Below are positions 8,011-38,258 of a DNA stretch of 64,000 bases, piece by piece (the stretch's first letter is position 1; the number at the start of each line of letters is the position of its first letter). The stretch covers positions 1-64,000 of the IMG/VR virus record IMGVR_UViG_3300046028_001986; one strand, given 5' to 3'. Position numbers and translations under genes: made by a program. Under the pieces are notes generated by a model that was not told the origin of the DNA, made no database searches, and was given only the letters and a program-made list of their open reading frames with translations. Origin of the DNA: a virus.

Positions 8011-9201
8011 ATGAGATTTAATGAAATTATATCCGAAGCAGGTAGTCCTGCCCAACAAGCAGCAATTGCAATTGCCATGAAAAAAGCTGGAAAGAAGCCA
8101 AAGCAAGGTGTGGCGGAAGGCAACCTAGAAGAAATTGACCGCAGAGGATTCTTAAGAGGCTTGGGTGCGGCCACTGTGGCAGGTGCGACTAATAATGCAA
8201 TGGCTGCTCTAGGGTCACCTACTGCTCCAAGGGCACAGGTTAAAGTGCCGCCTGTGCCACAGTTACCCGCACGAGACGGTGATCTAGGTAATGGCAATAG
8301 AGTAACAACAAACAAAGATGGTACTAGAACTTATTCTGGCGGGTTTGGTTCATTTACATACAATGCTCAGGGTAAGGCTATAACATATAGTAGTCCTAAC
8401 TTTAATGGATCTGGCCAAACCATCGACTTAACTACTAATCAAATTACGCAAAATTACAATGCAGGACCATTGAAGATTAAACAAACTACCGATGCTACCG
8501 GTAAGCAAGTAGCGGCTGATAAATCATATGATCTTGGTGCAGCAACTGTCAGACAGCAAACCGACGCAACGGGGAAAAATACTAACACAGCTTATGTTCC
8601 AATGGATGATACAACTCATGTTGTAGATAAACCAACCCTTAGAAAAGCCTTTGCGAAATGGCTGCCGGAAGGCTCTGAGGCAAGTGATAATCTAGTATCC
8701 ACACTGAATTCTTTCGGATATTACTCTGACAACAGTAGTGTTTATGCAAATGATGACGGTGATAAGATTGTTCGTCAAGGTTCTAATTGGAAACATCAAG
8801 ATGGTCAACGTGGTACTGGTGCTGAAGAATTAGGTAATTTCCTCAGTTCACAAGAAGTTGATGAAGGCGAAACTTGGTCAAAGCATAACAACCCAAGAGC
8901 AGGTGGGATGAGTAAAAAGTCTGTTAGTAGCTATCGCCGCAGTCATCCTGGTAGCAAGATTCAAACAGCGGTAACAACTAAGCCAAGCAAACTTAAAAAA
9001 GGTAGCAAGGCAGCAAAGCGTAGAGCTAGCTTTTGTGCCAGAATGCGTGGAATGAAGAAACATCGTACTGGTGCAAAAACAGCAAGAGATCCAAATAGCA
9101 ATATAAATAAAAGTTTGCGTAGATGGCATTGCGAAAGCATTGAAGAACTACATGAATTAGTAATGCTTGCTGAACAATTTATTAGGAATAACAAGAAATG
9201 A
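8011..9201 (+). CDS. Capsid-targeted cargo protein with internal cleavage motif
   Basis: 396 residues. The N-terminus 'MRFNEIISE|AG' resembles the T4 internal-protein capsid targeting sequence (MKTYQEFIAE|A). Residues 32-37 are 'QGVAEG', the repeated putative prohead-protease site of this genome, followed by 'RRGFLRGLGAATVAG', which looks like a twin-arginine signal. The middle is a Gly/Thr/Asn-rich repeat region. The C-terminal ~100 residues (SSYRRSHPGSKIQTAV ... GSKAAKRRASFCARMRGM) are a strongly basic module seen in many phage proteins (from memory DUF6321), probably DNA-binding. Further candidate cut: 'EVDE|G'. It is first of three plus-strand genes; its stop overlaps the next start by ATGA. 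Packaging and cleavage are inferred. Confidence 0.7.
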   Translation: MRFNEIISEAGSPAQQAAIAIAMKKAGKKPKQGVAEGNLEEIDRRGFLRGLGAATVAGATNNAMAALGSPTAPRAQVKVPPVPQLPARDGDLGNGNRVTTNKDGTRTYSGGFGSFTYNAQGKAITYSSPNFNGSGQTIDLTTNQITQNYNAGPLKIKQTTDATGKQVAADKSYDLGAATVRQQTDATGKNTNTAYVPMDDTTHVVDKPTLRKAFAKWLPEGSEASDNLVSTLNSFGYYSDNSSVYANDDGDKIVRQGSNWKHQDGQRGTGAEELGNFLSSQEVDEGETWSKHNNPRAGGMSKKSVSSYRRSHPGSKIQTAVTTKPSKLKKGSKAAKRRASFCARMRGMKKHRTGAKTARDPNSNINKSLRRWHCESIEELHELVMLAEQFIRNNKK

Positions 9202-10853
9202 ACTTCAAAGAATTATTAGAAGGCGCAGAGCCAAAGTTGCCGGGCGCCCCAAAGGGTATCTCAATTATGACACCTCAGCAATTTGTTGCTAGTGCTGGTG
9301 ATATGCCAGATGAAGAAGTAGATGAAGGCAGATTTACACATGGTCCAGGTGGCGTTCCACTTGATCGCCAGGGTAATCCCAAGGTAGCAAAGCCAGCTAT
9401 GCCTAAATTATCAAGAATGTCTGCACCAGAACCTAAATTAGATTTAGATAAGATTTGGTTTGATGTTACTCAGATCATCAGCAACATTTTCCCAGATGGT
9501 GATCCAGCTGACTACTTGCCAAAGTATGCCCGCAAACATGGGATAACATATGATGATATTCGCGCAGCAGCTAAAAAGAATGGTTATGAAGATGAGTATG
9601 CTTACATTGATGATATGAAAACCGGTGACTATGGTTATGATGAGCAAAGTTTAGCGGAAGGTGAAGAACATCTAGCAAGAATTCGTAGTCTATCTGGACT
9701 AGATGAAGCAACTAAACTACCAGCACAAACTCGTGACTTAAAGGGTCAAGAGTTTCAAGATTACATGAAACGAATCGTTGGTACTCCCGATGTAGATAAA
9801 GCAGGCAATGTTAAAGTAGATAAAAAGGGCAATGAAAAATATACAACTGGTAAAACTAAAGGTGACAAGTACAAGATGCCTTACATCCATCGTAGTAGTG
9901 TAGTTACATACTTAAGTCCAGATGGTAAAACATACGATGAAGATGCTGTTAAACAAACATTAGCAATTCGTCCCAAAGCATTACTTAAACAAAACGAAAA
10001 GATGAAGCACAGCAATGGTGAGTTTGAACAATTCTTTAATGTTGGGTTCGCGGCATTGGTAGGTATTGCATTAGATGAACAAACAAATAATCTAATTGTT
10101 GTTAACACATGTCCAGGCGCCGGCTCTTGTAAAGTTGATTGTTTCGCCATGAAGGGCGGCAAGATTCAATTTAAGGCTGCATGGCAAAGTGACGGCAGAA
10201 TACTTACATATCTGTTGAATGATCCAGATGGTTTCTTTAATCAACTAAGCAATGAAATCTCTGCTGAATCACAAGAGGGTGCTGCAGGCGATAAGAAATT
10301 CCCCAATGGATGGAAAGTAACGGTTCGTTGGCATGATGCCGGCGACTTCTTCAGTCCAGAATACTTGGATATGGCATTAAAAATGGCTGCTAAACATCCT
10401 GATGTTAGATTCTATGCGTACACTAAGATGGCAGGAGCAGCATTAGCTAAGAAGCCAGATAACTTCATCATCAATTGGAGTGAAGGTGCTAACACCGAGC
10501 AAGAGAAACAAGTAAAGGCTCAGGATCCTAAATTAGATAAGACAAAGAACAGTCGTATTGTTCCAGAGAAACTATTCTATGACTTATTGGCCAAGGATGA
10601 GAAGGGTAACTTGAAAAAGACGGATGACGGAGCATGGCAACCTGCTGATGACGCAGCACTTAAACAAATGAAACAACGAATTGCTAACGAATACGGCATT
10701 AGTTCTTCAAGTATTTTAAGTTATAATGAATATATGTCTAAGAGAAATTCAATTCCAGCTGGAATGAAGTACAATGTTATCGTTGCACCGGGTGAAGGTG
10801 ATGTTAGTGCGAATGATCCTGGTGTATTGAGTACCCTATTGTTAAGACATTAA
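9198..10853 (+). CDS. GP88-like domain protein with capsid-targeting N-terminus
   Basis: 551 residues. The N-terminus 'MNFKELLE|GAEP' again fits a capsid-targeting peptide, followed by candidate cuts 'EVDE|GRF' (about residue 43) and 'SLAE|GEE' (about 153). The C-terminal ~350 residues match the phage GP88-type domain: 'NTCPGAGSCKVDCFAMKGG', 'VRWHDAGDFFSPEYLDMALKM' and 'VRFYAYTKMAG'. The Cys cluster (CPGAGSCKVDC) and the VRxHDxGDFF strand suggest a metal-dependent enzyme, but its reaction is unknown. Between tag and domain are small helical segments. The gene is followed immediately by the third cargo gene (TAATG overlap). Confidence 0.75.
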   Translation: MNFKELLEGAEPKLPGAPKGISIMTPQQFVASAGDMPDEEVDEGRFTHGPGGVPLDRQGNPKVAKPAMPKLSRMSAPEPKLDLDKIWFDVTQIISNIFPDGDPADYLPKYARKHGITYDDIRAAAKKNGYEDEYAYIDDMKTGDYGYDEQSLAEGEEHLARIRSLSGLDEATKLPAQTRDLKGQEFQDYMKRIVGTPDVDKAGNVKVDKKGNEKYTTGKTKGDKYKMPYIHRSSVVTYLSPDGKTYDEDAVKQTLAIRPKALLKQNEKMKHSNGEFEQFFNVGFAALVGIALDEQTNNLIVVNTCPGAGSCKVDCFAMKGGKIQFKAAWQSDGRILTYLLNDPDGFFNQLSNEISAESQEGAAGDKKFPNGWKVTVRWHDAGDFFSPEYLDMALKMAAKHPDVRFYAYTKMAGAALAKKPDNFIINWSEGANTEQEKQVKAQDPKLDKTKNSRIVPEKLFYDLLAKDEKGNLKKTDDGAWQPADDAALKQMKQRIANEYGISSSSILSYNEYMSKRNSIPAGMKYNVIVAPGEGDVSANDPGVLSTLLLRH

Positions 10854-11749
10854 TGAGAGCAACTGAATTTATCGCAGAAGCAATACTAGATGAAGCAGCT
10901 ACTGCTATTGTCTACCATTATGCCGGTGTATCTGCTGCTGCAAAAATTCTAACTACTGGAGTTTTTCAATTAAGTAGTGTCACAGGTAACTCTAGTGAAG
11001 AACAATATGCACCGCCGGGATATCTTTACTTTCTAAGCACAACTCGCAGCAAAGTGGGAGACTATCACCGATATACTGGTAGCAGCGCCGCTATGTTTGT
11101 AATTGATGGGAACTGGTTAAATCGGCATTACAAAACAAAAGCAATTGATTATTGGGAAAGGTCTTGGCAACATAGTAACGGTACTCGTACCAGTGAAAGC
11201 GAAGATAGAGTATTTTCAAAGACACCTGAAATTCCAATTAACGGAGTAATTGCTGTTCATGTTTTGCTCAAAGAACAGAGCGAAAATCGTAGCCCCGAAG
11301 TTAGAACAATTTTAATCACTGCCAAGAAGCAAGGTATATCAGCTTACTTATACACAGATGAGAAGGCATGGCGTTTACAAGATACCCGCAAAGCAGTTAC
11401 TCCCGGTGACGCTGCTAAATTGCTTAAAGGACAACAACCAAAAGGTTACACACCAAGTCGTCCGCCGACAATGTACCTTGAACCGTGGGTAGAACTAATA
11501 TATAAAAACAAAAAATCAGATTTAACTAGCCGTGCTGAAAAGTTGCGATATGAATTAGTCTACTATGGCAGTAGACGTCCAGATTCCGATAGTAATCTTG
11601 GTGTAGATATGAGCAATGCTCGTAAACCTAATTCTACTGATTATCCAACTGCTGTTAAATTAAATGATTTTATGCGTAAGAATAAGTTACCAGATACAGT
11701 AGCACTTAAAAATATGCTAGTTGATAAATGGGTTAAAATTAAATCTTAA
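10853..11749 (+). CDS. Capsid-targeted protein, possible ADP-ribosyltransferase fold
   Basis: 298 residues. The N-terminus 'MRATEFIAE|AILDEA' is very close to the T4 IP/Alt targeting peptide. The next ~130 residues have the layout of DarT/PARP-like ADP-ribosyltransferases: 'IVYHYAGVSAAAKILTTGVF' (His/Tyr start), 'GYLYFLSTTRSKVGDYHRY' and 'SESEDRVFSK' (acidic catalytic-type motif), then 'VIAVHVLL'. T4 packages and injects its ADP-ribosyltransferase Alt, so such a cargo enzyme would be logical; the assignment is an inference from pattern only. The C-terminal part is unassigned. Its 3' end overlaps the convergent epimerase gene by 11 nt. Confidence 0.55.
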   Translation: MRATEFIAEAILDEAATAIVYHYAGVSAAAKILTTGVFQLSSVTGNSSEEQYAPPGYLYFLSTTRSKVGDYHRYTGSSAAMFVIDGNWLNRHYKTKAIDYWERSWQHSNGTRTSESEDRVFSKTPEIPINGVIAVHVLLKEQSENRSPEVRTILITAKKQGISAYLYTDEKAWRLQDTRKAVTPGDAAKLLKGQQPKGYTPSRPPTMYLEPWVELIYKNKKSDLTSRAEKLRYELVYYGSRRPDSDSNLGVDMSNARKPNSTDYPTAVKLNDFMRKNKLPDTVALKNMLVDKWVKIKS

Positions 11750-14302: not shown

Positions 14303-14403
14303 TATTTAATTCCAGTATAGTCTCTGTCATTTTCATTTGAACGATAGCACATATAGAAAACCCCTACTATATACCCAAGTAAAAATCCCCAAAAGAAATC
14401 CAT
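14302..14403 (-). CDS. Tiny single-span membrane protein (33 residues)
   Basis: MDFFWGFLLGYIVGVFYMC followed by a charged tail RSNENDRDYTGIK. The first 19 residues form one hydrophobic transmembrane helix, N-out/C-in by charge. The ATG overlaps the stop of queE (TAATG at 14401-14405), its stop overlaps the next GTG start (TAGTG), and GGAAT precedes it. This tight packing makes it likely real. It could be a lysis, exclusion or membrane-anchoring peptide; unknown. Confidence 0.6.
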   Translation of the reverse strand: MDFFWGFLLGYIVGVFYMCYRSNENDRDYTGIK

Positions 14404-15251
14404 TAGGTATTCCATGCGTTTTTAAAGAGTGGCACCTGAAGTCTATCACTATAACGCCAGCCTAACCGCATTGCTTCAAGTGCAACTGTTTTGGCATTCA
14501 TGTTATATACACTTTCAACTCCGCCACATGGCATCAAGTAAGCATTACCCCTAAATCCGTGAGTACGATATTGATTAACTGCTTCTTGTGCTTCTTCTAC
14601 ATCTTGTCTATTGGCCACAACAAACTTCAGATATGTATGACCTACTTGACTATATTCATCAATAATTTCAGGACATATTGCTTCTTCCCACTTCTCGCCA
14701 CTGATACCAAGTTTAGGACTAACACTAAATGTTATTGCACCTCTAGAACGATTGATGGCCCATTGATGCAAGTAGGTTTTCAATTGATGTTGCAACGGTT
14801 GAGTGCCATTTGTTTCAAATGTTAGTTCTTGTAAACCCGTCATGTTTTCATGTGAAAGTAAATCAATATAACTGCGTTGCCAACCTAGCAAAGGTTCACC
14901 CCCTGTAATAACAAGATGTTCTTCCATCCAACGCTTGTGCGGAAGCATTGTCATAATACTTTCAACAATACTATCAGTAGTACGTATTGGACTGAAATCT
15001 TTGAAACGAGGATCCCAACTTGCATAACTATCGCAACCTGTACTAACTAATGGTAGTTGGGTGTAAGCCGTGTAGTAATGCACACGGGCTGCGATATCTT
15101 CTACTTCACTACTTATTTCGCCCCTTGGCATACCAAACCCTGCACATTTGAAGTTGCAACCAAATGTTCGTAGGAAAATACTTGGTACTCCGATATATCG
15201 GCCTTCTCCTTGAATACTATAAAATAGTTCACTAATTTTTAATTTGCTCAT
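14403..15251 (-). CDS. queE: 7-carboxy-7-deazaguanine synthase QueE (radical SAM)
   Basis: 282 residues. It converts 6-carboxytetrahydropterin to 7-carboxy-7-deazaguanine with S-adenosylmethionine and a [4Fe-4S] cluster. 'ISELFYSIQGEGRYIGVPSIFLR' is the conserved QueE opening, then the cluster Cys at 32 and 36 (CNFKC). The third Cys is not at the usual spacing but at 73 in 'GCDSYASW', so about 34 residues are inserted inside the CxxxCxxC motif. 'ITGGEPLLGWQ' and 'LTFETNGTQPL' are SAM-binding elements. With FolE, QueD and a DpdA-like transglycosylase nearby it points to 7-deazaguanine modification of phage DNA. Confidence 0.9.
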   Translation of the reverse strand: MSKLKISELFYSIQGEGRYIGVPSIFLRTFGCNFKCAGFGMPRGEISSEVEDIAARVHYYTAYTQLPLVSTGCDSYASWDPRFKDFSPIRTTDSIVESIMTMLPHKRWMEEHLVITGGEPLLGWQRSYIDLLSHENMTGLQELTFETNGTQPLQHQLKTYLHQWAINRSRGAITFSVSPKLGISGEKWEEAICPEIIDEYSQVGHTYLKFVVANRQDVEEAQEAVNQYRTHGFRGNAYLMPCGGVESVYNMNAKTVALEAMRLGWRYSDRLQVPLFKNAWNT

Positions 15252-15266
15252 TTTTTGATCCTTAAT

Positions 15267-15419
15267 CTAACTAATTGCACCTGCTATGATAAACAAGTTT
15301 GTAATGACATAGCATAACACAATACAAGTTCTAATACACGCAATACGGTCAGATTCTGTATCGGTTGTGCCCGCTTTCTCACCTAGGGATTTTGCCCATA
15401 TTCTCCAAAATATCTTCAT
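15267..15419 (-). CDS. Small membrane protein (50 residues)
   Basis: MKIFWRIWAKSLGEKAG...TESDRIACIRTCIVLCYVITNLFIIAGAIS. The N-terminal half is an amphipathic Trp/Lys helix, the C-terminal half a transmembrane helix. From memory the pattern '(F/I)WR.WA.SLGEKA' then 'IRT.I.L.Y.ITN.FI.AG' belongs to a small protein family recurring in environmental myoviruses. The ATG overlaps the upstream stop (TAATG at 15417-15421). Function unknown. Confidence 0.7.
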   Translation of the reverse strand: MKIFWRIWAKSLGEKAGTTDTESDRIACIRTCIVLCYVITNLFIIAGAIS

Positions 15420-15637
15420 TATTTCTTTAATGGCTTTAGAGGCATATCAGGAAATGAACCCCATGCTTGTTTCAATTCGGCTGAAACTCCTTCTGGTCCT
15501 CCACTATTTACCCACGCACGATTGATAACAACAGTTGGATTACCATTGACTATAACATATCGTGTAAGAAAGTCACTGTAATCATAAGTACCATCAGGTA
15601 CCCATTTAAACATTTTAAAGTCTGAATCAGAACTCAT
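15419..15637 (-). CDS. Hypothetical phage protein
   Basis: 72 residues (MSSDSDFKMFKWVPDGTYDY...), Pro/Lys-rich tail. Its start overlaps the queD stop by ATGA, its stop overlaps the membrane protein start by TAATG. It contains 'YVIVNGNPTVVINRAWVNSGG', a probable beta hairpin. No family recognised. Confidence 0.6.
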   Translation of the reverse strand: MSSDSDFKMFKWVPDGTYDYSDFLTRYVIVNGNPTVVINRAWVNSGGPEGVSAELKQAWGSFPDMPLKPLKK

Positions 15638-16137
15638 TCAAACAAATCCTCATTCCATTCACGATGCCCCTCTCTAAAAGCCATATTTGCCTGTGTTTCA
15701 CGTACTTCAACCCGATAGCACCACAAACGCTTTGCTTCACTTTCACCCCACATATCAGGAATGTAAACCCCGTTAACATACTTGTATAGCATATCTGCAA
15801 GACTTTCACATCCTAAGTTGGGGAGAATAGTTAATTTCATAATGCCACGATGTTCCGCCTGCACATACCAGTCTAGATGTGGATCTGATTCAGCCACTAA
15901 TGTTGTATGGTCAAATTGACTCTCTAATGTTTGCTTTAGTTCTTTCAAGCCGCCATAATCCGCAGCCCATCGGCGCGCATCTAAGTCGTTTGTTCCAAAA
16001 TAGAACTTCATTGAGAAGCTATAACCATGTAAAAACTGGCAATGGCTGTCGGCTTTGTACTGTCTATAAGCACAGGGGAACGCATCGTGATACTCTTTTG
16101 TGGAAGTCCACTTATATGTTACTGGTAGTTGTGTCAT
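15634..16137 (-). CDS. queD: 6-carboxytetrahydropterin synthase QueD (PTPS family)
   Basis: 167 residues from the ATG at 16137; the frame extends upstream but that part overlaps the cytidylyltransferase gene. QueD makes 6-carboxytetrahydropterin from the FolE product. Zinc and catalytic elements: 'ADSHCQFLHGYSFSMKFYFG' contains the Cys and HG(Y/H) pair, 'FDHTTLVAESDP' the catalytic Asp-His, 'ESLADMLYKYV' and 'YRVEVRETQANMAF' the C-terminal Glu motif. It lies between queE and folE in the same operon. Confidence 0.85.
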   Translation of the reverse strand: MTQLPVTYKWTSTKEYHDAFPCAYRQYKADSHCQFLHGYSFSMKFYFGTNDLDARRWAADYGGLKELKQTLESQFDHTTLVAESDPHLDWYVQAEHRGIMKLTILPNLGCESLADMLYKYVNGVYIPDMWGESEAKRLWCYRVEVRETQANMAFREGHREWNEDLFE

Positions 16138-16138
16138 T

Positions 16139-16600
16139 TTACTTATCTTTTTGATGTGCGTCCGCAACTCGTTTACGTAGACTTGAACTACTGAAACTGT
16201 GATCACGCTCATTAAATACTATTTCAATTCTGCGAGTTTGACAAATATCGCTACCCGTAAAATCCTTATCTTTGTATTCTACACCCAAGATACGAACATC
16301 AATAGGTAGTATGAGTAGAATATCTTCCAAGTCCTTCTCAGTATTGTAAACAACAATTTCATCTACAAAACGGACAGCACTTAAACTAATCTGCCTCTCA
16401 ACAATACTTTGAATAGGAGCATTCTTCTCCGCTCTATCCCATTGTGCGTTATTCTGCAAACCAGCAATAAGATAGTCGCAATGATTTTTAGCTTCACTAA
16501 GCATTGCAATATGCCCGGCATGTAGAATATCAAATTGGGAGAATACGATACCTATCTTAAGCCCTTGTTGTTTTAGTTCTTTGATTCTGTTGAATATCAT
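16139..16600 (-). CDS. Cytidylyltransferase-family nucleotidyltransferase (HxGH)
   Basis: 153 residues from the ATG at 16600, which overlaps the upstream stop by ATGA; a GTG at 16618 is an alternative. Signature 'KIGIVFSQFDILHAGHIAMLSEAK' (HxGH) and the C-terminal 'SFSSSSLRKRV' (S-x-x-x-x-R) are those of glycerol-3-phosphate cytidylyltransferase/RfaE-like enzymes. Such enzymes activate small phosphorylated compounds with CTP or ATP. The substrate is unknown; the neighbours are deazaguanine genes. Confidence 0.8.
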   Translation of the reverse strand: MIFNRIKELKQQGLKIGIVFSQFDILHAGHIAMLSEAKNHCDYLIAGLQNNAQWDRAEKNAPIQSIVERQISLSAVRFVDEIVVYNTEKDLEDILLILPIDVRILGVEYKDKDFTGSDICQTRRIEIVFNERDHSFSSSSLRKRVADAHQKDK

Positions 16601-16833
16601 TTTTTTAATGTTCTCCACATCTTTATTTTAGAATGTTCATCAAGAAATTCTTCTTCGCCGGCGAATGTAGGTGAATCAGCCATAATCTCATCAAGCAACC
16701 ACTTGATACGATGTAAGTCTTTTTTGATTTCAAACTGATTGAAACCATCGTTGTAGTTGCTATGCAATTCTATTCCAGCTGTGTAAATTTGATGATGAAC
16801 ACCGGTATAGTCCATTGGTTTACGAAATCCCAT
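16597..16833 (-). CDS. Conserved phage hypothetical protein
   Basis: 78 residues beginning MGFRKPMDYTGVHHQIYTAG. The frame is open upstream to 16908, but the ATG at 16833 has AGAGGA at ideal spacing and matches the usual family start. The pattern 'HRIKWLLDEIMADSPTFAGEEEFLDE' is recognisable from other phage genomes; function unknown. It overlaps the membrane protein gene by 14 nt. Confidence 0.7.
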   Translation of the reverse strand: MGFRKPMDYTGVHHQIYTAGIELHSNYNDGFNQFEIKKDLHRIKWLLDEIMADSPTFAGEEEFLDEHSKIKMWRTLKK

Positions 16834-17676: not shown

Positions 17677-17741
17677 AGATAACCTTCCTTTGTGATGGTT
17701 TTTGTTTTGAAATGTAAACTACCGTTGTGTATCTTACATTT

Positions 17742-18681: not shown

Positions 18682-18682
18682 A

Positions 18683-25287: not shown

Positions 25288-25316
25288 ATTATAGCATAGA
25301 AATGATTTTATTGAAA
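25288..25316 (-). promoter_or_regulatory. Extended -10 promoter with dyad, tilS
   Basis: TATAAT (25288-25293) preceded by TGC (extended -10), with a weak -35 TTTCAA (25311-25316) at 17 nt. The -10 sits in a perfect dyad CTATGC-ATTATA-GCATAG (25282-25299). Only 6 nt separate the -10 from the start codon. The same dyad recurs at 6429-6444, and a variant at 48277-48294. Confidence 0.65.
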
Positions 25317-25892
25317 GATTTCCGGGTGATCTTTGCCAAATACTTTCATATATTTTCCGGCACTCATATCAGCTAGCATTTCAATTGGACTACCTGGGTA
25401 ACTATCACCTGGTTTAATCATATCCAATTCACCTTGACGGACATGAGTAAGTTCATGCAGGACCGTACGCATAATATCAACCATATTACGATTAGCAACA
25501 TATACCCAAACATTATTATCATTTGTACTATGGCGACCAGTATGATGACCTTCTTGTGCTTCTTCAGTATCGTAGCTGAATTCAATTTCGGGTACTGATT
25601 GTAGATTAAGTTTTTGTGCTGCAAATTGAATGAATTTCTGCATTATTGGGTTATCTGCTAAAAAGTCTGGTTCGTCATTTTCTTCATCTAGCTTGCCCTT
25701 AACCCAGTTATCCGGTGATCGTTTGAATTTCCGCACAAATAGGTCATGTAGTGCTTTGCTAGTAATACTATGTCTACTAGCAACTTGACGCATTAATTTG
25801 TCAATCGTTGTGTAGTCATGTTTTTGCAATGACGGCAAGCGTTTTGCCAATTCATTTGTAGCGGATTCAATAATAATGTGTTCAGTGAGCAT
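25308..25892 (-). CDS. HExxH metallopeptidase with capsid-targeting-like N-terminus
   Basis: 194 residues. The N-terminus 'MLTEHIIIE|SATNEL' fits the cargo-tag pattern. A helical middle (residues 12-70, 'RQVASRHSITSKALHDLFVRKF') is followed by a short zinc peptidase domain with 'IMRTVLHELTHVRQGELDM' (HELTH, catalytic Glu) and 'PIEMLADMSAGKYM' (third ligand candidate Glu). It may be a virion-borne peptidase acting at the host envelope or inside the host; this is inference. A GATAAATA box 4 nt upstream predicts leaderless late expression. Confidence 0.7.
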   Translation of the reverse strand: MLTEHIIIESATNELAKRLPSLQKHDYTTIDKLMRQVASRHSITSKALHDLFVRKFKRSPDNWVKGKLDEENDEPDFLADNPIMQKFIQFAAQKLNLQSVPEIEFSYDTEEAQEGHHTGRHSTNDNNVWVYVANRNMVDIMRTVLHELTHVRQGELDMIKPGDSYPGSPIEMLADMSAGKYMKVFGKDHPEIFQ

Positions 25893-26481: not shown

Positions 26482-26922
26482 TTAATTACACCAACTAGTT
26501 TTAGCTTCACCATAGTATTCTCGGGCAAAACCTTGACTAATTAACATTTGTCTAAGACTTTGTCCATTTAATATTACATCACCCAACACACGCCCGCCAT
26601 ACTTGTCCCAATCCATGAGAACAATTTGTCTTTTAGTTGCTACTTCAATTGCATGTTTAGTGAAGGCAGTTGCTGCTTGACCTCGTTGCTCCTCACTAGG
26701 ACATTTTGCCCTGAAACCTTTTTCCGGTGTATCAACACCAAACACACGAATACTTAATTCTTTCTTTAATGGATCAGGTAAGAACGGTGCGTGAAAGGCT
26801 ACCGTATCACCATCAATAACCCTAGTTATTACAGCATCATATGTTACACCTTCTTTTTGTTTTTGTGCTAATACAACACTAGATAGTATTGTCAATGCTA
26901 ATAATATTATTATTTTTTTCAT
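26482..26922 (-). CDS. Secreted thermonuclease-like nuclease (SNase family)
   Basis: 146 residues. N-terminal signal peptide 'MKKIIILLALTILSSVVLA', cleavage likely after VLA. Mature part has the staphylococcal nuclease motifs 'VIDGDTVAF', 'IRVFGVDTPEKGF' (Arg, Asp, Glu of the active site) and 'DKYGGRVLGDV' (second Arg). It would cut DNA or RNA in a Ca2+-dependent way in the periplasm or outside. Its start overlaps the previous stop by ATGA, so it is co-translated with the upstream cargo gene. Possible uses: nucleotide scavenging or destruction of competing DNA. Confidence 0.85.
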   Translation of the reverse strand: MKKIIILLALTILSSVVLAQKQKEGVTYDAVITRVIDGDTVAFHAPFLPDPLKKELSIRVFGVDTPEKGFRAKCPSEEQRGQAATAFTKHAIEVATKRQIVLMDWDKYGGRVLGDVILNGQSLRQMLISQGFAREYYGEAKTSWCN

Positions 26923-28295
26923 GTTGATTTAATGCGTTTCTTGTAATCTATAAAGTTTGCGTGTCTATCTTCTAATCCTGATAGTGAAGAATTAATTTTC
27001 TTAGTAACTGCGGCAGTATCATCAAAGTTATTTATCCCCGGTTTAACTCTTGTGTTCCAATACCACAGTGCTACCTTTAACGCTATGTCAGGCCTTGCTG
27101 CAAGTTCAGGTTGTTTGAGTAAGTTTATCTTCAAGGCGTCACCTGCCATACGATAGTTGTCACGACCGGTCAATTGAATATATCCTCTGCCGTGATATCT
27201 AGCACCATCTCCCACTTGTTTATTACCAAGTATCTTAGCAGTTCTGGGTGAATGTTTAACATCGTATTTTTTAGCAAAATAATCTTTTACCTTTGGTTGT
27301 GGCTTTTCTTGTAACCTACTAAAATTCCAAGTTTCATGTTTCGTCTGAGCTAAAAATTGTGCTAATTCTGATCCCTTCATTCCTTCTTTTTTTGCAGTTT
27401 GATATAAAACATTTTCTGCTTGTGTATCTACTGTGGGAGATGCTGCTTTAACTACGGGTGTTGCTGCTTTAACTTGTACTTCAGGAGCAGCATCGGGTTG
27501 AGTTATTTTAGATATTTTAGCTGTTCTAACTGGTTCTACCGGAGAATTATATTGATTAGCAGCACCTAATGCTCCCAATGCCATAGCACCACCAGCGACC
27601 CAGTTCTTCCAATCTTCTTCTAAATCATCTAGTTCAACTAATTGTCTATATGGCTCATCACCGGTCCATCTTGAACCCTGATCCATTGCTTCGCCGACTG
27701 CTGGATCCCACTTCATGCTCTTACTACCCTTGTGTATAGGAGCGAAGCCTTGCCCCTTGTAGAACTTTGTTAGTTTACTTTGACTTACTTGACCGTGTTG
27801 CCAAGGGAACAATGTTAGTGCAATTCCATCTGCTTGTGCCATGGCTTGCAATTCTTTCATTGCGCGTGAGCCGACCCCTTGACGTAGTGGATATGCTTGA
27901 AACCATTTTACTTCTACTGCACCTCGTTTGCTGAAACTTGGGGTTAGTTCAAACATTGCAAGCTGCTGAGTGTCACCTTCGCCCCACATCATTACATGAT
28001 TATTTTTAAAGATAGTTGGATACTTTTGATAGACCTTTTCAATCCAAGCCTTTGCGGCATCGTTGTTGCTTATTTTGATTGGTTCATCTTCCTTCATTAA
28101 TTTACTAATGCGAGGCTTGAATAACTGTACTTCACCTTTGTTAGTTTTTAGTACAGGTTGATTGTGCTTGTCTTTAGTAAAGCCTTTAATCTCTGCTGGA
28201 CTATTCTTAAATTTACCCTTGAGGATTTTATCACCAACTGATAACTTGGGCGGTTGATATGAGGCAGTCTCATTAATAAATTCAATTGCTCTCAT
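26919..28295 (-). CDS. Capsid-targeted fusion: GNAT-like domain plus GH19 lysozyme domain
   Basis: 458 residues in four parts. (1) Tag 'MRAIEFINE|TASY'. (2) A small beta domain, about 15-65: 'LSVGDKILKGKFKNSPAEIKG'. (3) About 70-205, a GNAT-like acetyltransferase region with 'YPLRQGVGSRAMKELQAMA' (acetyl-CoA loop Q-x-x-G-x-G/S) and 'KFYKGQGFAPI'. (4) After a Pro/Ala linker, about 290-455, a GH19 muramidase/chitinase-type domain: 'QFLAQTKHETWNFSRLQE' (catalytic Glu) and 'YHGRGYIQLTGRDNYRMAG'. Candidate cut 'VGEA|M' lies between (3) and (4). It may be a virion lysozyme with an extra enzyme. A second GH19 protein, the likely endolysin, is at 52943. Confidence 0.75.
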   Translation of the reverse strand: MRAIEFINETASYQPPKLSVGDKILKGKFKNSPAEIKGFTKDKHNQPVLKTNKGEVQLFKPRISKLMKEDEPIKISNNDAAKAWIEKVYQKYPTIFKNNHVMMWGEGDTQQLAMFELTPSFSKRGAVEVKWFQAYPLRQGVGSRAMKELQAMAQADGIALTLFPWQHGQVSQSKLTKFYKGQGFAPIHKGSKSMKWDPAVGEAMDQGSRWTGDEPYRQLVELDDLEEDWKNWVAGGAMALGALGAANQYNSPVEPVRTAKISKITQPDAAPEVQVKAATPVVKAASPTVDTQAENVLYQTAKKEGMKGSELAQFLAQTKHETWNFSRLQEKPQPKVKDYFAKKYDVKHSPRTAKILGNKQVGDGARYHGRGYIQLTGRDNYRMAGDALKINLLKQPELAARPDIALKVALWYWNTRVKPGINNFDDTAAVTKKINSSLSGLEDRHANFIDYKKRIKST

Positions 28296-28737: not shown

Positions 28738-29889
28738 TTATCCTTTAGTTTTCTTTGTGTTGACATTGATGGCTTTACCACTACGCTCTGGATTGGGATC
28801 TTCTCTGCGTTTTCTTGCTGCTGCACTTGCACGACCCTTTTTACCTAAACTGTGTGCTTTACTTTGAGGCAAACATTTTGGTTTACCTTCTCCCGGCTCT
28901 CTTGCACATGGACCCTTGATATTACCTTTGGTATCCATGCGAACCCACTTTTCTTTATTAAACCAATCATGTAAACTTTCATCCGTTTGATTTATGCCTT
29001 CTAGTATAGAACTTTCATTCTTACTACTATTACCCCAATTACTTGCACCTTTTTTACGACATTTGACTAATGCACCGCTAGCATAGGCACTTGGCCATAC
29101 TTTATAACGGCTTTTTACTTTATAGTAGCAAGCATCTTTCTTTTCATTCATTATCATTTCACTGAACATTGGTCCATTACAGTGTGGGCAACTATGTTGT
29201 TCCTCCGCCACACCTTGTTCTTTTTGACCTTGCTGTTGCGCCCATTGAGCAATTTTTCCAAAGAGTGTATCAGGAACACCGAGGTCTGTAGCAGCCTTTG
29301 GATCGCTAATATCAACTACGTTAATAGTTCTATCAGCAAGTGGACCGCTTGATTGAATAGGGCCACCTGATGCAATCGTTGCGGCACCTGTGTATTTTTT
29401 TTCTGGATCATTTAGTCTTTGATCTAATCCCAATTGTTTAGCAACATTAGGAGCCACTGGTTTTATGTCAATAAATGATGCTGAGTTACTTGCAGTAGAT
29501 AAATTTTGGTTGCGGCGCCAACTGGCTGCAACGTATGTGCCATTGGCTAATCTAACATAAGTGGTCACTGGAGCAAAGATATCTAATTCATTTAACTTGT
29601 CCTCCGACACACCTTGTTCGGTTGTTAGTGTACCAGTGCGTCTTTGTCCGGAACCTTTGAACATATCATTTGTTTCTTCATATGTTCCTGGATAAGGTAT
29701 ACCAACTGATTCTTTCTTAACATCATTTGCAAATTGTTTATTAGTTGCTTTTACAATGCCACTAAAACGCTTGTTGCCACGAGCAAAATCTTTTTCTTTA
29801 TCTGCTTTACTGGCATCGGCTGCGGCAGCAGTTTTGTATTGTGCTAACTTTTCGTTAGATAGTTCTGTTAAAAAATCTGATGGTTTCAT
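28738..29889 (-). CDS. Capsid-targeted multi-segment protein with zinc-ribbon and basic modules
   Basis: 383 residues. Tag 'MKPSDFLTE|LSNE'. Segments are separated by 'EQGVSE|D' (about 92-97) and 'EQGVAE|E' (about 224-229). The first segment is Lys/Ala-rich and basic. The second is a beta domain (TYVRLANGTYVAASWRRNQN). The third has 'CPHCNGPMF', then 'DACYYKVKSRYKVWPSAYASGAL' and 'CRKKGASNWG'. The last is a basic tail with 'WVRMDTKGNIKGPCAREPGEG' and 'GKKGRASAAARKRREDPNPERS'. The last two are modules I recall from many phage proteins with no known function; they look nucleic-acid-binding. Cleavage by the prohead protease is inferred. Confidence 0.7.
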   Translation of the reverse strand: MKPSDFLTELSNEKLAQYKTAAAADASKADKEKDFARGNKRFSGIVKATNKQFANDVKKESVGIPYPGTYEETNDMFKGSGQRRTGTLTTEQGVSEDKLNELDIFAPVTTYVRLANGTYVAASWRRNQNLSTASNSASFIDIKPVAPNVAKQLGLDQRLNDPEKKYTGAATIASGGPIQSSGPLADRTINVVDISDPKAATDLGVPDTLFGKIAQWAQQQGQKEQGVAEEQHSCPHCNGPMFSEMIMNEKKDACYYKVKSRYKVWPSAYASGALVKCRKKGASNWGNSSKNESSILEGINQTDESLHDWFNKEKWVRMDTKGNIKGPCAREPGEGKPKCLPQSKAHSLGKKGRASAAARKRREDPNPERSGKAINVNTKKTKG

Positions 29890-29890
29890 A

Positions 29891-32260
29891 TTATTTCTTA
29901 TTCTTGTTATCTAACATGCCGCGTTTGTTAGCAGTTGCCCAAGCAATGTTCTTAGCGACTTTCTTTGACTTGCCTGCCTTTTCTTCACTCTTTTCAATAT
30001 GACTAACCATACGATCTACTTTGGCACCTTCACTAACTTTTTTCTTAGCAGCATCCCATGCAGCATCAGTCTTTACATTGTATTCTTTACCACCGGCGCC
30101 AATATCAGCAATTTCGTCCTTGTCGAAATTTGGATATCTGGACCAGCGGGTGGAAGGTGTGTATCCTTTACGGCATAATTTCATCTCTGCGTTAGCTTGT
30201 TTGTCTGACATATAGGGACTTGGAGAGCTGCCTTCCGCCACATCTTTCTCTGGTTCTGTTGGTTTGGGTTTCTTTCTGGGACTATCTAACCAAGGATACT
30301 TGGAGCCTTCCGCTACATCTTGTGTTGCATACTTGGCGTACACCTTGCTATTTTCACCATAGCCATGTCTCCTAGCCATTTGTTGTAATTGCGCTTGGGT
30401 CTTGCCTTTGAAGTATTCTTTCTTTTCAGCATCGGTCATCAGGCGAATTTTTTCTTTGACACGAATTACTGATGCTGGCATAGCACCTTCTGCTATATTT
30501 TTATCTTGTAACCGTTTTTCTGCACGATTCAATCCAACACTTCTCATTGAAAATTTATGACCTGCTTTATTTGCAGATTTTGGGTCATTGTCTCTTATAC
30601 CTTTACCAATAGTGGTAAATTGTTTATCTTGATCTTTCTCCGCTTTGTCATAGTAAGAAGTAACAGTGTCTCTATTCAATTCATCTAACTGGCCTTCTGA
30701 CACACCTTGCTCCGGAGGTATAAAGTCTTCCAAATCCATACTAGAAAATCCTATAAAATCGTTTTGACTTCCGTGTGCCGCATTTTGTTTAATTTCTTGT
30801 ACATACCGATCGGCACCTTCTGACAGATCACCGGCATCAAGTCCATCAATTGGATACATTACATATTGTTTATCTCCACGATGAAACGACACTGCATAGG
30901 AGTTACTGTCGGCCACGGCATAAATTTCAATAATGTATTTTCCGTCGTCGCTTTCAAAGTCTTCCTGAAAGAAAAATCTATCTCCCTGACCGTCTTTACG
31001 CTCAGGTGGTGCTAACTCGTTCAATCCTTTCGAGCCTTTCGCCACACCTTGCTCATTAAATCTTGTATCATGTTTCATTGCAAGTGCATCATTTGTCCGC
31101 GGATCGTCAATGAACTTTAATTCGTAATCAGGATGCTTCATTATCTGTTGATTGATATCATATGCTTTAGTGTGATGCTGCTGAGCCTTTTCTTTGTTAC
31201 CTCTCTTTAGATATGTTCTTGACAAGTAAGTGTGATGTTGATATTTTGATTTCAAATCATCTAATGATTCATTAAAGCCTTCCGCCACACCTTGCTCTGT
31301 ATGACTTAAAATATTATTTTTAGGAACACGATATTTTGCCACAGTCTTTTCGGTGTTTCTTGGGCTTGGATCAACTGATTTAACAATAAGATGCCCGTCT
31401 TTCCAACCAACTATGGTGCCTTCAATTTCAGGATAATGATTGCTGTGATACCAAGTAATCTTATCACCGGGATCGTAACCTTCCGCCACATCTTTCTCTG
31501 GTTCTGGTTTCTTTCTGGGACTATCTAACCAAGGATACTTGGAGCCTTCTGACACACCTTTCTCTGGTTCTGTTGGTTTGGGGTTGGGGTTCTTTCTGGG
31601 ATTATCTAACCAAGGATACTTGGAGCCTTCCTCCACATCTTTTGGTGTTACTCTATCGATACCTTTTTCTCTCCGTGAAATCATGCGTTGAGCAATGTCT
31701 TTATATTCACCTTTTTTAGCATCTGGGGTAAGTCCTTTAACTTGTGCTTTTGCTTTTTCTAAATAACTTGCTTTAGTAGCATCACTAACCTCCGCGACAC
31801 CTTGCATCTCTTGGCTGCTGATTAGATAATCCATAACACTAACCATCATGCTTTTTGCTGCGCCAATCTTCTCTGATACCCACTCTGGGAATTCAGATTG
31901 AACAGATAATCTCTCGTCTAAATCACTGGCAGCACGGGCGATAGTGTGTAAACTGTTCTTTAATGTGTGGCCTTCATGTTCACCTTGATCTAAATCATGT
32001 TTAACAAATCCGGTTCTTTTTAATCTGCCTTGTCCAGGAACAACAATTAAGTCTTGTTCTGAAAGATCATCTTCAGTGACTTTGCTTTCTACAATGCTAT
32101 TAGCGTAAGGACCTTTCTTTTTAGATTTGCCCTTTATTAATTGTTGTACTGGTTTTAGTCCACGAACATTAGTATTTTCGCGGGTTTGAGTCATCATAGG
32201 CTGTGCTACGGTGGCAACCGATCCTGCTGTTGTATTTTCTACTATTTGATTAAATCTCAT
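29891..32260 (-). CDS. Capsid-targeted polyprotein with about eleven QGVAEG-type junctions
   Basis: 789 residues built of short unrelated segments joined by a repeated motif. Tag 'MRFNQIVE|N'. Junctions in order: MQGVAE|V, DVEE|G, GVSE|G, DVAE|G, GVAE|G, GVAK|G (Glu lost), GVSE|G, NIAE|G, DVAE|G, DVAE|G and KVSE|G. After three of them the same sequence SKYPWLDxPRKKP follows. Segments include a beta domain (KITWYHSNHYPEIEGTIVGW), a helical one (YLSRTYLKRGNKEKAQQHH), one with 'RFFFQEDFESDDGKYIIEIYA', and a basic C-terminus (VDRMVSHIEKSEEKAGKSKK ... ATANKRG). Each junction fits a T4-type prohead protease rule ([LIV]-x-E|G/A). The product may be a set of small head-packaged proteins. Confidence 0.75.
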   Translation of the reverse strand: MRFNQIVENTTAGSVATVAQPMMTQTRENTNVRGLKPVQQLIKGKSKKKGPYANSIVESKVTEDDLSEQDLIVVPGQGRLKRTGFVKHDLDQGEHEGHTLKNSLHTIARAASDLDERLSVQSEFPEWVSEKIGAAKSMMVSVMDYLISSQEMQGVAEVSDATKASYLEKAKAQVKGLTPDAKKGEYKDIAQRMISRREKGIDRVTPKDVEEGSKYPWLDNPRKNPNPKPTEPEKGVSEGSKYPWLDSPRKKPEPEKDVAEGYDPGDKITWYHSNHYPEIEGTIVGWKDGHLIVKSVDPSPRNTEKTVAKYRVPKNNILSHTEQGVAEGFNESLDDLKSKYQHHTYLSRTYLKRGNKEKAQQHHTKAYDINQQIMKHPDYELKFIDDPRTNDALAMKHDTRFNEQGVAKGSKGLNELAPPERKDGQGDRFFFQEDFESDDGKYIIEIYAVADSNSYAVSFHRGDKQYVMYPIDGLDAGDLSEGADRYVQEIKQNAAHGSQNDFIGFSSMDLEDFIPPEQGVSEGQLDELNRDTVTSYYDKAEKDQDKQFTTIGKGIRDNDPKSANKAGHKFSMRSVGLNRAEKRLQDKNIAEGAMPASVIRVKEKIRLMTDAEKKEYFKGKTQAQLQQMARRHGYGENSKVYAKYATQDVAEGSKYPWLDSPRKKPKPTEPEKDVAEGSSPSPYMSDKQANAEMKLCRKGYTPSTRWSRYPNFDKDEIADIGAGGKEYNVKTDAAWDAAKKKVSEGAKVDRMVSHIEKSEEKAGKSKKVAKNIAWATANKRGMLDNKNKK
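30271..30310 (-). repeat. 40-bp repeat, copy 1 (SKYPWLD unit)
   Basis: Encodes EGSKYPWLDSPRKK in the polyprotein. The other copies are at 31510-31549 (identical) and 31591-31630 (one mismatch). Flanking sequence, including the following Lys/Pro/Glu stretch, is also similar. Confidence 0.85.
31510..31549 (-). repeat. 40-bp repeat, copy 2 (SKYPWLD unit)
   Basis: Identical in DNA to copy 1 at 30271-30310, about 1.2 kb away, which implies recent duplication or conversion. Confidence 0.85.
31591..31630 (-). repeat. 40-bp repeat, copy 3 (SKYPWLD unit)
   Basis: One mismatch to copies 1 and 2 (ATTATC for ACTATC, giving Asn in place of Ser after the Asp). Adjacent to copy 2, forming a partial tandem of about 81 bp. 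Confidence 0.8.
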
Positions 32261-37600: not shown

Positions 37601-37728
37601 AATTTAGGAACCATGTAACTACGCTTAGTTACCTTTAAATCTAAATGCTGTGCTTCTTTTCCGTTAATAGATAGATTGCCACCTTCGTCTAGGTGTGTAC
37701 GACCTTCAAGTAGGGCACTGATTTTCAT
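34663..37728 (-). CDS. Capsid-targeted NTase - ATP-grasp-type ligase - NMNAT fusion protein
   Basis: 1021 residues. Tag 'MKISALLE|GRTHL'. Domain 1 (about 30-240) is a nucleotidyltransferase: 'SGSSLHFF' (75-80), 'VGDIDTMVD' (D101, D103), 'VQIDFEFVEF' (third acid). A helical linker follows to a perfect site 'TLAE|AVPS' (410/411). Domain 2 (about 412-700) has the layout of a nucleic-acid ligase core: 'LKVDGAGIRFG' (K459, KxDG), 'IVNAEML', 'IEGLVINMPSG', 'AKVTSP'. Domain 3 (about 718-880) is a NadM/NMNAT-type HxGH domain: 'YGSFVGHKGHEQ', 'VVVGADRKDS', 'ISFTQLRD'. A C-terminal helical tail has 'LLE|AKQHL'. Ligation plus NAD synthesis on one packaged protein is a striking combination; all activity is inferred. 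Confidence 0.75.
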   Translation of the reverse strand: MKISALLEGRTHLDEGGNLSINGKEAQHLDLKVTKRSYMVPKLNELLYAINSAYFKMYKQGLWSNELLTSGKFLSGSSLHFFNVKGISDEVFTEKKPTVGDIDTMVDKTKEPNLQQFLTAYTNKQIGAATFLGFQRGNEQFSGLFELQDPPVKVQIDFEFVEFEKDNPTDWARFSHSSAWEDLQAGVKGVFHKWLIQAFTALTRKDFILRKLVGRGKLRQEQDVPTTDNMYSFAVSSKEGGGLRAKYEPVLDDNGKPLVSKGLPVMREAPTSGYNQDIGQIFSTILDQRLNPKQAKALQKQFWSFTGLLQVMNSLMSPEEKEQVMQGFLQKTIGPGAQGMYKNNPDKDIAEKMVAINTLLDTLKLSKSAELDQLLAAYRKSFKYTSAGAEEKAGADADVVKSMAKNTLAEAVPSYKRKGIQHIYNPGSSTEMKDADFINFCKEIAQDGGNFANVPINLKVDGAGIRFGRTQNGEPFFMTSRVETPMTKANIGDFEKYGRSQGQSDEQLTRTQNYDKVLSIIVNAKFMKDIPPDTIVNAEMLFNPMAQQDSGGFKFVNIPYDPKKLGKVMTLVPITVKQYSTGEQSPDADEIKEALIKDSTPDIKMINNTLSHKGIDVSKIVNPIVKNSAALLNAVSQRGDSPDKQKAKAILSAARQALSKVIINSPIPGKDQLGDMIEGLVINMPSGTLAKVTSPDMQQKMADKQAMNKKPTEGGNRTTTAVITYGSFVGHKGHEQLIDETIAIAKQVGGVPFIYVSPVVGPDDPIPPADKVKTLQKLYPQYANNIQVWDAGGTAMKKIEKELVLPANSKYNKIIVVVGADRKDSTESWLNSLEKRMKDPVALAKYGGTQNQVEFQTIGTERDPEKGGTGISFTQLRDILKNPNASEQDKLNVWMQAFDSQKLGVAWIKHLMDTTAKYSNNQPQAIKEYIKKIKPMLEYATPIQKVKIYNQLLEAKQHLDEMGATIEPIEEEEVMAHMANALIKGAPIAKLRAARDQERMKKREQDYGRPQAPKFDYLDEK

Positions 37729-38258
37729 TATTTACCCGGTGGGTTATATGTTTGTTCGTATTCTACTTTAGCAATACGATAGTAGTTATCACCGTCTTTG
37801 ACTAGGTAATCCCCTGGCTTTAATACCATTTGCTCACCCCATGACGCAGTAAATGTGATTGGTTGTTGACCAGTATACAATGCTACCATTCTAGGACCCT
37901 GTTCGGGCACAACAACTTCACCTAGTTTACCTTGATATAATTTAGGAAATTTTGCTGACTTAACAACATAATTTTCTCTGCTTGGGCCAGACATAATTAT
38001 ATCATTTGGTTCAGCAACATTTTGTGTTTCTTTACCATCACTAGTAATAGTAACAACTGGCATTTGTTGTGTTGCTACAGTATATGTCATTGCTGGCATC
38101 TTACCTGGCATACCACCATCTACATATTTGTATTGTTTTGGTTGCTTATGTGTAGGTAAGAATTCCATACCTGCTGCTATTTGTTGTATGTCAGCAGGGC
38201 CACCTTCTTGTGCCTCATTTATCATATCAATATATTTTCTAAAAAGTGCTGTACTCAT
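37728..38258 (-). CDS. Conserved virion-associated protein with capsid-targeting-like N-terminus
   Basis: 176 residues. 'MSTALFRKYIDMINE|AQEGG' is a longer version of the tag with an I-x-E|A site. The rest is a beta-rich module: 'NYVVKSAKFPKLYQGKLGEVV', 'GPRMVALYTGQQPITFTASWG', 'VLKPGDYLVKDGDNYYRIAKVEYE'. From memory the last block recurs in environmental phages as a small stand-alone protein. Its stop overlaps the ATG of the 1021-residue fusion by one base. Function unknown. Confidence 0.65.
   Translation of the reverse strand: MSTALFRKYIDMINEAQEGGPADIQQIAAGMEFLPTHKQPKQYKYVDGGMPGKMPAMTYTVATQQMPVVTITSDGKETQNVAEPNDIIMSGPSRENYVVKSAKFPKLYQGKLGEVVVPEQGPRMVALYTGQQPITFTASWGEQMVLKPGDYLVKDGDNYYRIAKVEYEQTYNPPGK

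Follow-up and report, generated by a model that had tools for sequence, protein, structure and literature searches.

Introduction

In T-even phages, short conserved DNA words serve as exchange junctions, in mobile regulatory cassettes (PeSL) between genes and in adhesin motifs. Protein loading into the T4 prohead has also been described: the first ten residues of the internal protein IPIII suffice for targeting, the prohead protease gp21 cuts by an L/I-x-E rule, packaged Alt is an ADP-ribosyltransferase (ART), and it was already suggested that such capsid-targeting sequences (CTS) may let T4-like phages load varied proteins (all according to the available portion of PMC9026906). Here we describe a 64,000-base stretch of viral DNA (the window; bases 1-64000 of the 72,065-base record IMGVR_UViG_3300046028_001986, the remainder of which was also read, L001). 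In this window unrelated proteins begin with CTS-like tags, and several of them are mosaics of modules joined by an 18-bp linker word, CAAGGTGTGGCGGAAGGC, which encodes QGVAE/G (a slash marks a predicted cut). Tagged cargo is already a known kind; the linker mosaics conserved as DNA are the more novel part. The string QGVAEG was not found in the literature searched, whose reach left subscription journals largely outside, and likewise titles and abstracts gave no match for shuffling combined with a prohead protease or polyprotein, or for capsid targeting in jumbo phages.

Results

Origin of the window

The window represents part of the genome of a T4-like jumbo myophage of aquatic origin. When its family-B DNA polymerase was compared with those of annotated phages, the nearest was that of Sinorhizobium phage Phosso (48%), followed by Vibrio phage 2.275.O and Agrobacterium phage Atu_ph07 and, after them, the RaK2/CBB group. 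Six uncultured relatives with records of 230-525 kb show 84-94% polymerase identity. The true genome of the relative G004 is probably about 348 kb, because the same linker matches recur in it 347,553 bases apart, and the contig is probably a piece of a genome near 350 kb. An aquatic jumbo phage lineage with a prohead protease was described in a 2025 paper (PMC12619734, available portion).

N-terminal tags occur in excess of chance

A sequence-only reading of this DNA had proposed that eleven proteins start like T4 internal proteins and are capsid-targeted cargo. All eleven starts are ATG starts of open frames, three on the + strand (8011, 9198, 10853) and eight on the - strand (25892, 28295, 29889, 32260, 37728, 38258, 62165, 62805). 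In nine of them a Glu stands at residue 8-10 after [LIV]-x, and in 38258 and 62165 at residue 15. P3 is L or I in 11/11, as in a CTS propeptide of about 8-20 residues ending in L/I-x-E. One detail has to be corrected: the peptide MKTYQEFIAE, which had also been assigned to Alt, is carried by the T4 internal proteins and not by Alt.

To count such starts we applied a strict rule ([LIV]xE[AGSTNQEDL], Glu at residue 8-10) to proteins of at least 80 aa, with 1000 draws as control. Because the rule was composed after the listed starts had been seen, guided by the T4 motif L/I-x-E, it was not a blind one, and the relatives and T4 provide the fairer, independent tests. Eleven of 67 called proteins in the window match, compared to 1.5 ± 1.2 (maximum 6) after shuffling of residues 2-25 and 1.8 ± 1.3 (maximum 7) in internal windows, and 0/1000 draws of either kind reach 11. 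Nine matches are listed starts; the other two, 14403 (a radical-SAM, QueE-like enzyme) and 62837, are probably due to chance. The tag reading covered three of the six large relatives, where 16/206, 20/238 and 23/353 proteins match, versus 4.0, 4.7 and 6.4 in shuffles. The observation made in the sequence-only reading is confirmed.

We consider it very improbable that these peptides merely reflect chance or start-codon context and have no targeting role. Short motifs are common, and the expected chance share is considerable in the two reference phages: T4 has 14/213 matches versus 6.0 ± 2.4 in shuffles (2/500 reach), about 6 of the 14 being expected, and CBB has 25/482 versus 11.2, about 11 of 25. 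The T4 matches include gp21, gp22, gp24, gp2 and two proteins starting with MKTYQEFIAE, which we take to be IPII and IPIII. The 25 CBB matches correspond to 21 genes (four repeat in the terminal repeat); the annotated start of CBB_199 lies three codons downstream, which would shift its motif. A looser rule, applied after removing four spurious window open reading frames (ORFs) and shifting four starts, gives 13/75 in the window versus 4.4 in shuffles (0/2000 reach) and 5.6 in internal windows (4/2000 reach). In the relative G005 this loosest rule barely exceeds the internal controls (28/353, a count reached by 86/1000 internal draws). Against chance, in none of the four genomes did a single one of the 1000 shuffles reach the strict count, and the excess is centred on Glu 9. 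In addition, at least 87 distinct ORFs among the fetched viral loci start with MRAxEF[ILV]xE, and the tag varies among homologues of the 25308 protein while L/I-x-E is retained. The codons of the MRAxEF[ILV]xE ORFs lie near background (Ala GCA 55/87 versus 43%, Phe TTT 59/87 versus 70%), with the exception of Arg2 (AGA in 75/87 versus 39%). As codons mostly track background usage, the tag is kept chiefly as a peptide.

The claim that the proteins behind the tag are otherwise unrelated is borne out by their domains, which differ (GP88, GH19 and an ART fold in the window; ART-PolyVal, sigma-70 region 4, NUDIX and amidoligase in relatives and fetched loci). Five of ten tagged proteins scanned have no Pfam match at E 0.01, and tblastn at E 1e-5 returned no phage homologues of the 29891 protein. 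Single linkage of 127 distinct tagged ORFs yields 18 groups, a poor estimate of the number of families, since shared modules chain 84 ORFs into one. For the 10853 protein, an aligned set of 12 sequences (11 of 19 fetched loci included) gave a structure model with a mean pLDDT of 78.5 and a pTM of 0.55; residues 1-13, the tag and slightly more, are below pLDDT 50. Foldseek matched the model to DarT with E 2.3e-4 and probability 1.00, yet with a TM of only 0.31-0.47. VIA aligned model residues of about 10-178 with Tpt1 (Z 11.4, rmsd 2.9, 114 aligned) and DarT (Z 9.8, rmsd 4.0, 148 aligned). The body of the protein is thus predicted to have an ART fold.

Some further starts resemble the tag. The protein encoded at 43302-43847 (-), absent from the earlier list and lacking a Pfam match, begins with MTRIINE/G; this start is kept in G001 and G003 (MTRRIINEGLDYLDM) and in G005 (MTNKTILNEGLDYHDL) and is likely a further tag with the Glu at 7-9. 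A homologue of the 25308 protein in L150 (14983-15936; G005 284983-285936) has the tag MRAIELYES and an inserted sigma-70 region 4, and is possibly a packaged sigma-like factor. Small tagged proteins of 124-128 aa (L126, L135; G003 117507 and 117878, G005 16385) have partly different middles and a common C-terminal FKGYKRK, perhaps a second signal.

A linker word conserved as DNA in one reading frame

The sequence-only reading was incomplete in that it overlooked linkers inside the proteins, whose cut site is of the tag type (8104; 29200-31642). A QGVAEG-type peptide recurs inside several tagged proteins, and the 29891 protein has nine [VIL][AS]EG sites. At the DNA level, the linker word has 11 matches with at most three mismatches in the window, compared to 0.02 expected, all of them in genes 8011, 28738 and 29891 (Table 1). 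It was also found in 8/8 related records searched. A codon-degenerate scan of viral contigs gave at least 118 ORFs with at least 168 deduplicated sites; totals of the viral linker scans are lower bounds, and the loci are not a random sample. At the sites listed, Ala is GCG in 149/168 (12% in the same ORFs), Val is GTG in 146/168 (22%) and Gly is GGT in 156/168 (42%). Little is conserved outside the word, apart from the preceding codon, which is partly conserved (GAG at 92 of the 168 sites listed). Of the QGVAEG sites listed, 95/174 are exactly CAAGGTGTGGCGGAAGGC versus 0.36 expected from codon usage; seven S77 loci were in the input for this count and L085-L090 were left out.

In a 17-base DNA-word scan, the linker frame was the longest open one in 93/93 matches listed among newly fetched viral loci, compared to 16/26 bacterial matches. 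A bacterial or adapter origin of the linker was rejected: 257 Gb of bacterial and archaeal genomes contain 26 single 18-mer matches, where an estimated 7 or so are expected by length alone. These bacterial loci (L351-L376) were excluded from the linker-protein set, and near-identical flanks or N-termini were deduplicated in the counts of linker sites, linker proteins and MRAxEF[ILV]xE starts. Among the linker proteins listed with a complete, distinct start, 46/145 carry a strict tag (3.7 expected) and 87/145 a looser one (26 expected).

Modules are exchanged at the linkers

When the 214 linker proteins listed were cut at their linkers, 688 segments in 480 clusters were obtained, 40 of which have at least three members (segments below 25 aa were dropped). 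The 295 inner segments listed have length quartiles of 65, 89 and 139 aa. One 61-aa module occurs 11 times, flanked by nine different neighbours on its left and nine on its right; to the left of the C-terminal DUF6321 module, 11 different neighbours occur. At the locus near the GP88 gene, four genomes share the tag type and the C-terminal module and differ in the middle, with one linker in 396 aa in the window, five in 560 aa in G001, five in 826 aa in G003 and none in 441 aa in G005.

Homology ends are concentrated at linkers. Among 854 ends at 85% DNA identity or more, 35.6% lie within 18 nt of a linker, versus 4.3% at random places; at 70-85% identity the share is 18.6% of 3248 versus 4.5%. 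For these counts, high-scoring segment pairs had to be at least 90 nt long and to end more than 60 nt away from any ORF end. Two base-level alignments show modules that are 97-99% identical between linkers, with unrelated sequence beyond both. In the 29891 gene, the shared block 178-459 ends at or next to a linker (457) on one side, and the blocks 764-989, 1546-1752 and 1771-1937 on both sides (linkers 766, 967, 1552, 1759, 1939). Assembly chimaeras at the repeat were considered and are an unlikely source of such mosaics: the 8011 gene is 100% identical in G008, two loci, L003 and L082, each from a further metagenome, contain a 789-aa gene with the 29891 start, and the linker word is shorter than usual assembly k-mers.

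The module borders, the nearly invariant synonymous sites and the loss of the Glu in some copies would also fit a linker that acts as a DNA element only, that is, a recombination or nuclease target whose product is a neutral, flexible and uncut spacer. We regard this as unlikely. The viral matches listed all stand in one frame, and variants alter codons yet keep an aliphatic-x-Glu-Gly peptide (GTGTCAGAAGGC encodes VSEG). Moreover, the tag is commoner in linker proteins than in shuffles, and Tat (twin-arginine translocation) signals follow directly behind linkers. Kept as a one-frame DNA word that marks the borders of exchanged modules, the linker most likely serves as a recombination junction in addition to encoding a peptide site.

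Tat signals follow linkers

The Tat signal of the window scores 19.0 bits in NCBIfam TIGR01409 (cut-off 16.7). Six distinct RRGFL-type signals, this one included, were found in the linker and window proteins listed. In 6/6 the distance from the linker Glu to the RR pair is 3-8 residues, a zone that holds 3.2% of residues. The NCBIfam cut-off was passed by 5/5 signals submitted (window included); the sixth, in L201, was outside that set. Seven other RR matches in a looser scan are without the signal form; their distances behind a linker range from 12 to 2155 residues. A seventh Tat signal, in G005, has no linker and is preceded by GLKEA, an L-x-E site in its own right. Positions as far in as residue 44, 346 or 694 are understandable for Tat signals if everything upstream is removed by cutting. 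In the gene at 26919-28295 (-), the segment LEEDWKNWVAGGAMALGALGAA (about residues 220-250), which precedes GH19, resembles the Tat modules minus the RR pair; it may be signal-like and become exposed by cutting at L-E-E.

Prohead protease, core genes and virion proteins

An S77 (gp21-type) protease was matched in 6/8 related records, which are 6/6 of those above 200 kb. In G001 the protease gene adjoins a gp22-like gene, followed by a gp23-like gene; portal, gp22 and gp23 in the relatives owe their names to their position among the genes and their similarity to the T4 and CBB proteins rather than to a family search. The gp22-like and gp23-like N-termini bear L-x-E sites. The gp23 of G001, G003 and G005 starts with MSKVLLEG...EALLEG...VILEN...QLLAESSAG, and since this start repeats the same motif type, its propeptide resembles a string of cargo tags. 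Near the start of gp21 in the same three genomes stands VVESVSEG, which like the linker has Val at P3 followed by Gly at P1' and is by its sequence a candidate cut site.

In T4, gp21 cleaves gp22 and other core proteins at more than one place, giving several fragments of each (PMC9026906, available portion). The multi-linker proteins might accordingly be core or scaffold proteins like gp22, broken down to small peptides so that the prohead is emptied, and not effectors. That several modules of the 29891 gene are, by eye, short, charged and of low complexity, and that the 59217 gene contains several LSE/VSE sites, would suit this. We nevertheless think it quite unlikely, as gp22-like and other core-like genes are located elsewhere, beside gp21, tagged genes bear enzyme-like or ART domains, and modules have Tat signals or, by eye, zinc-finger-like cysteines. 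The module set at one locus is different in each of four genomes, which is a better fit for effectors. The 59217 protein itself may be core or scaffold rather than cargo; homology to CBB_214 was looked for and not found.

The 62805 protein aligns with CBB_210 from residue 1 (22% over 163 residues, E 1e-4), and the neighbouring gene is a homologue as well (E 5e-14). CBB_210 was detected in CBB virions by mass spectrometry (MS) with 13 peptides and 60.5% coverage, and the strict-rule genes CBB_210, 214, 254, 256 and 299 are among the 55 proteins that were listed from CBB virions by MS in a publication whose virion section gives no cleavage sites (PMC5259590). CBB 308 and 321 also match the rule and are labelled structural protein. 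The CBB hypothetical protein CBB_455 (L403 957-1556) starts with MEMKKLMED and has an ART-PolyVal domain, so that tag and ART are combined in a protein of an isolated phage; it does not appear in the CBB MS table.

Other genes of the window

Two untagged genes, at 26482-26922 and 28295-28735 (-), lie amid the tagged ones; their products resemble staphylococcal nuclease, with what by eye looks like a Sec leader, and ferritin. The genes at 14403-20269 and 24673-25281 (-) comprise a radical-SAM protein (QueE-like, below cut-off), a PTPS (QueD-like) protein, GTP cyclohydrolase I, a PP-loop gene and a 528-aa gene that is TGT/DpdA-like by eye and has no Pfam match; together they are perhaps a 7-deazaguanine DNA modification set. 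The gene at 53940-59117 (-) encodes a tail-fibre-like protein of 1725 aa, in which GATGATG repeats form a long collagen-like stretch.

Table 1. Tagged genes of the window and the tag, linker and signal positions within them; a slash marks the predicted cut and linker words include matches with up to three mismatches
Feature	Position	Strand	Remarks
Tagged mosaic gene, putative cargo, 396 aa	8011..9201	+	tag MRFNEIISE/A, linker QGVAEG, Tat signal, C-terminal DUF6321 module
Tag MRFNEIISE	8011..8037	+	rule match
Linker word CAAGGTGTGGCGGAAGGC = QGVAE/G, exact copy	8104..8121	+	gene 8011
Tat signal stretch, residues 42-65	8134..8205	+	starts just behind predicted cut after Glu 36
Tagged gene MNFKELLE/G, putative cargo, 551 aa	9198..10853	+	GP88 domain
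Tagged gene MRATEFIAE/A, putative cargo	10853..11749	+	predicted ADP-ribosyltransferase-type fold (DarT/Tpt1-like), structure model
Tagged gene MLTEHIIIE/S	25308..25892	-	weak WLM metallopeptidase match below cut-off
Tagged gene MRAIEFINE/T	26919..28295	-	GH19 chitinase/endolysin domain
Tagged mosaic gene MKPSDFLTE/L	28738..29889	-	modules common with cyanophage T4-GC 119 family
Linker words	29200-29217, 29599-29616	-	gene 28738
Tagged mosaic gene MRFNQIVE/N, 789 aa	29891..32260	-	eight linker words, plus VSE/G, IAE/G and LSE/G sites
Linker word KDVAE/G	30230..30247	-	gene 29891
Linker word QDVAE/G	30305..30322	-	gene 29891
Linker word QGVSE/G	30692..30709	-	gene 29891
Linker word, Glu lost (QGVAKG)	31034..31051	-	gene 29891
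Linker word QGVAE/G, exact copy	31277..31294	-	gene 29891
Linker word KDVAE/G	31478..31495	-	gene 29891
Linker word KGVSE/G	31544..31561	-	gene 29891
Linker word KDVEEG, degenerate	31625..31642	-	gene 29891
Tagged gene MKISALLE/G, 1021 aa	34663..37728	-	cytidylyltransferase-like domain (PHROG 3041)
Tagged gene, longer tag ending DMINE/A	37728..38258	-	Glu 15
Tagged gene MDFRDILKSFDNLSE/A, 982 aa	59217..62165	-	several LSE/VSE sites
Tagged gene MRSLKHFIVE/S	62176..62805	-	homologue of MS-detected virion protein CBB_210

Discussion

T4-style capsid targeting is in our view the best account of the tags, because of the tag excess, the S77 protease in relatives above 200 kb and the virion homologue CBB_210. 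The following explanation, taken together, is probably right. A CTS of 8-15 residues ending in L/I/V-x-E would mark a set of unrelated proteins and bring them into the prohead core, as in T4. The S77 prohead protease would cut after the tag Glu, after which the proteins would be packaged and would probably enter the host by injection, together with the DNA. Several tagged genes would encode polyproteins whose VAE/G linkers are cut at maturation, freeing separate modules, and some freed modules, beginning with a Tat signal, could be directed to the host periplasm. The linker word would most likely double as a short-homology junction at which modules recombine between phages. From the patterns described we infer targeting, cleavage, packaging and injection, and also recombination as the cause of the DNA conservation. 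A bolder version, a modular effector assembly in jumbo T4-like phages, seems to us evenly balanced: an in-frame 18-bp word would be both prohead protease cut site (QGVAE/G) and recombination junction, and cargo genes would consist of a tag and of modules alternating with the word. Their polyproteins would be cut in the prohead and delivered together as an injected kit; the host Tat system would then export those modules whose signal the cut exposes.

Several observations weigh against the explanation of targeted and cut polyproteins. No S77 match was obtained on the 72-kb contig, which is a genome fragment. The original cargo reading is partly supported, by the above-chance tag, the unrelated domains, the recurrence in relatives, the lineage's gp21-like protease and the virion homologue. 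Among 22 other linker-bearing records above 100 kb, all of them possibly fragments, S77 was matched in 11 and not in the other 11; by size, 5/7 records over 250 kb have a match (two do not), as do 6/15 of those of 100-250 kb. The linker has Val at P3, whereas T4 gp21 is described as cutting after L/I-x-E (PMC9026906, available portion), and some linkers lack the Glu (31034). Ninety-nine of the 145 linker proteins listed are without a strict tag and 58 without even a loose one, and 1/1000 internal draws in G005 equals the strict count. With up to three mismatches allowed, the linker word is absent from 8/9 isolate or single-cell records (Atu_ph07, Phosso, Vibrio phage 2.275.O, T4, three cyanophages and AG-345-E15) and is thus not a feature of cultured relatives. 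The sole match, with three mismatches, is in CBB_149, an untagged 917-aa gene of CBB that is labelled structural and does not appear in the MS table. The homology to CBB_210 is weak, and only 5/21 rule-matching CBB genes are in that table (PMC5259590, available portion). Finally, the window Tat signal reaches 18.4 bits in Pfam TAT_signal, below the cut-off of 22.7, and the Tat-bearing modules look related, so that the six cases are not independent.

If the explanation is right, the tag would allow the arsenal injected by uncultured jumbo phages to be traced in sequences. The early effectors of these phages are mostly unknown, and every tagged gene would become a candidate for counter-defence or host takeover. 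In the linker, a single DNA word would be under selection both as protease site and as recombination joint, a rare case that would explain how effectors are reshuffled without loss of frame or packaging. The grammar of tag, module and cut site could also be used for loading proteins into phage and delivering them.

Comparison with known systems

As in the T4 system of internal proteins, Alt propeptide and gp21, the tag is a short N-terminal propeptide ending in hydrophobic-x-Glu, an S77 protease is present in the lineage, and an ART-like protein is found among the tagged ones, as Alt is in T4. Unlike T4, there are more matches here (20/238 in G003, about 5 by chance), internal linkers of the same type and module shuffling.

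Polyvalent proteins of phages and conjugative elements (Iyer et al. 2017, PMC5512222) are likewise multidomain and thought to be delivered with the DNA and processed. According to the available text of that paper, their processing is mainly by zincin-like metallopeptidase domains, whereas here it would occur at a repeated linker that resembles the prohead protease site and is kept as one DNA word; in the same text the terms 'linker' and 'capsid targeting' were not found, and 'prohead' only in a reference. The only zincin-like domain noticed here is the weak, sub-cut-off WLM match in a separate gene (25308). Pfam ART-PolyVal occurs in tagged proteins of the relatives, but in separate, single-domain ones, and few modules of the multi-module proteins match a known effector family. 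The ejection proteins of phiKZ-like phages such as SPN3US also have cargo propeptides that are cut after Glu, and large packaged sets. They differ in the motif (A-x-E or S-x-E) and in their mostly longer propeptides, and a repeated linker or module shuffling was not found in the available text of PMC5694885 and PMC10052503.

The T4-GC 119 family of cyanophages, whose S-B68 member is labelled structural protein, has DUF6321, DUF5872-like and KKDACYxKVKSRY modules in common with 8011 and 28738. It differs in that no strict tag was seen by eye in four cyanophages (P-SSM2, S-SM1, S-SSM7, S-B68) and the linker word is absent from the three searched. In the related marine virus AG-345-E15 (L381), which has such modules, a tag-like MKTFEQFTE/G, outside the strict rule, stands directly before the DUF5872-like module. 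A tag-like start outside the strict rule, MKNFQEFQE/A, was also noticed in GC 422 of the marine relative S-SSM7 (L379). In contrast to the exchange words of PeSL cassettes and adhesins, the word described here lies inside coding frames and resembles a protease site.

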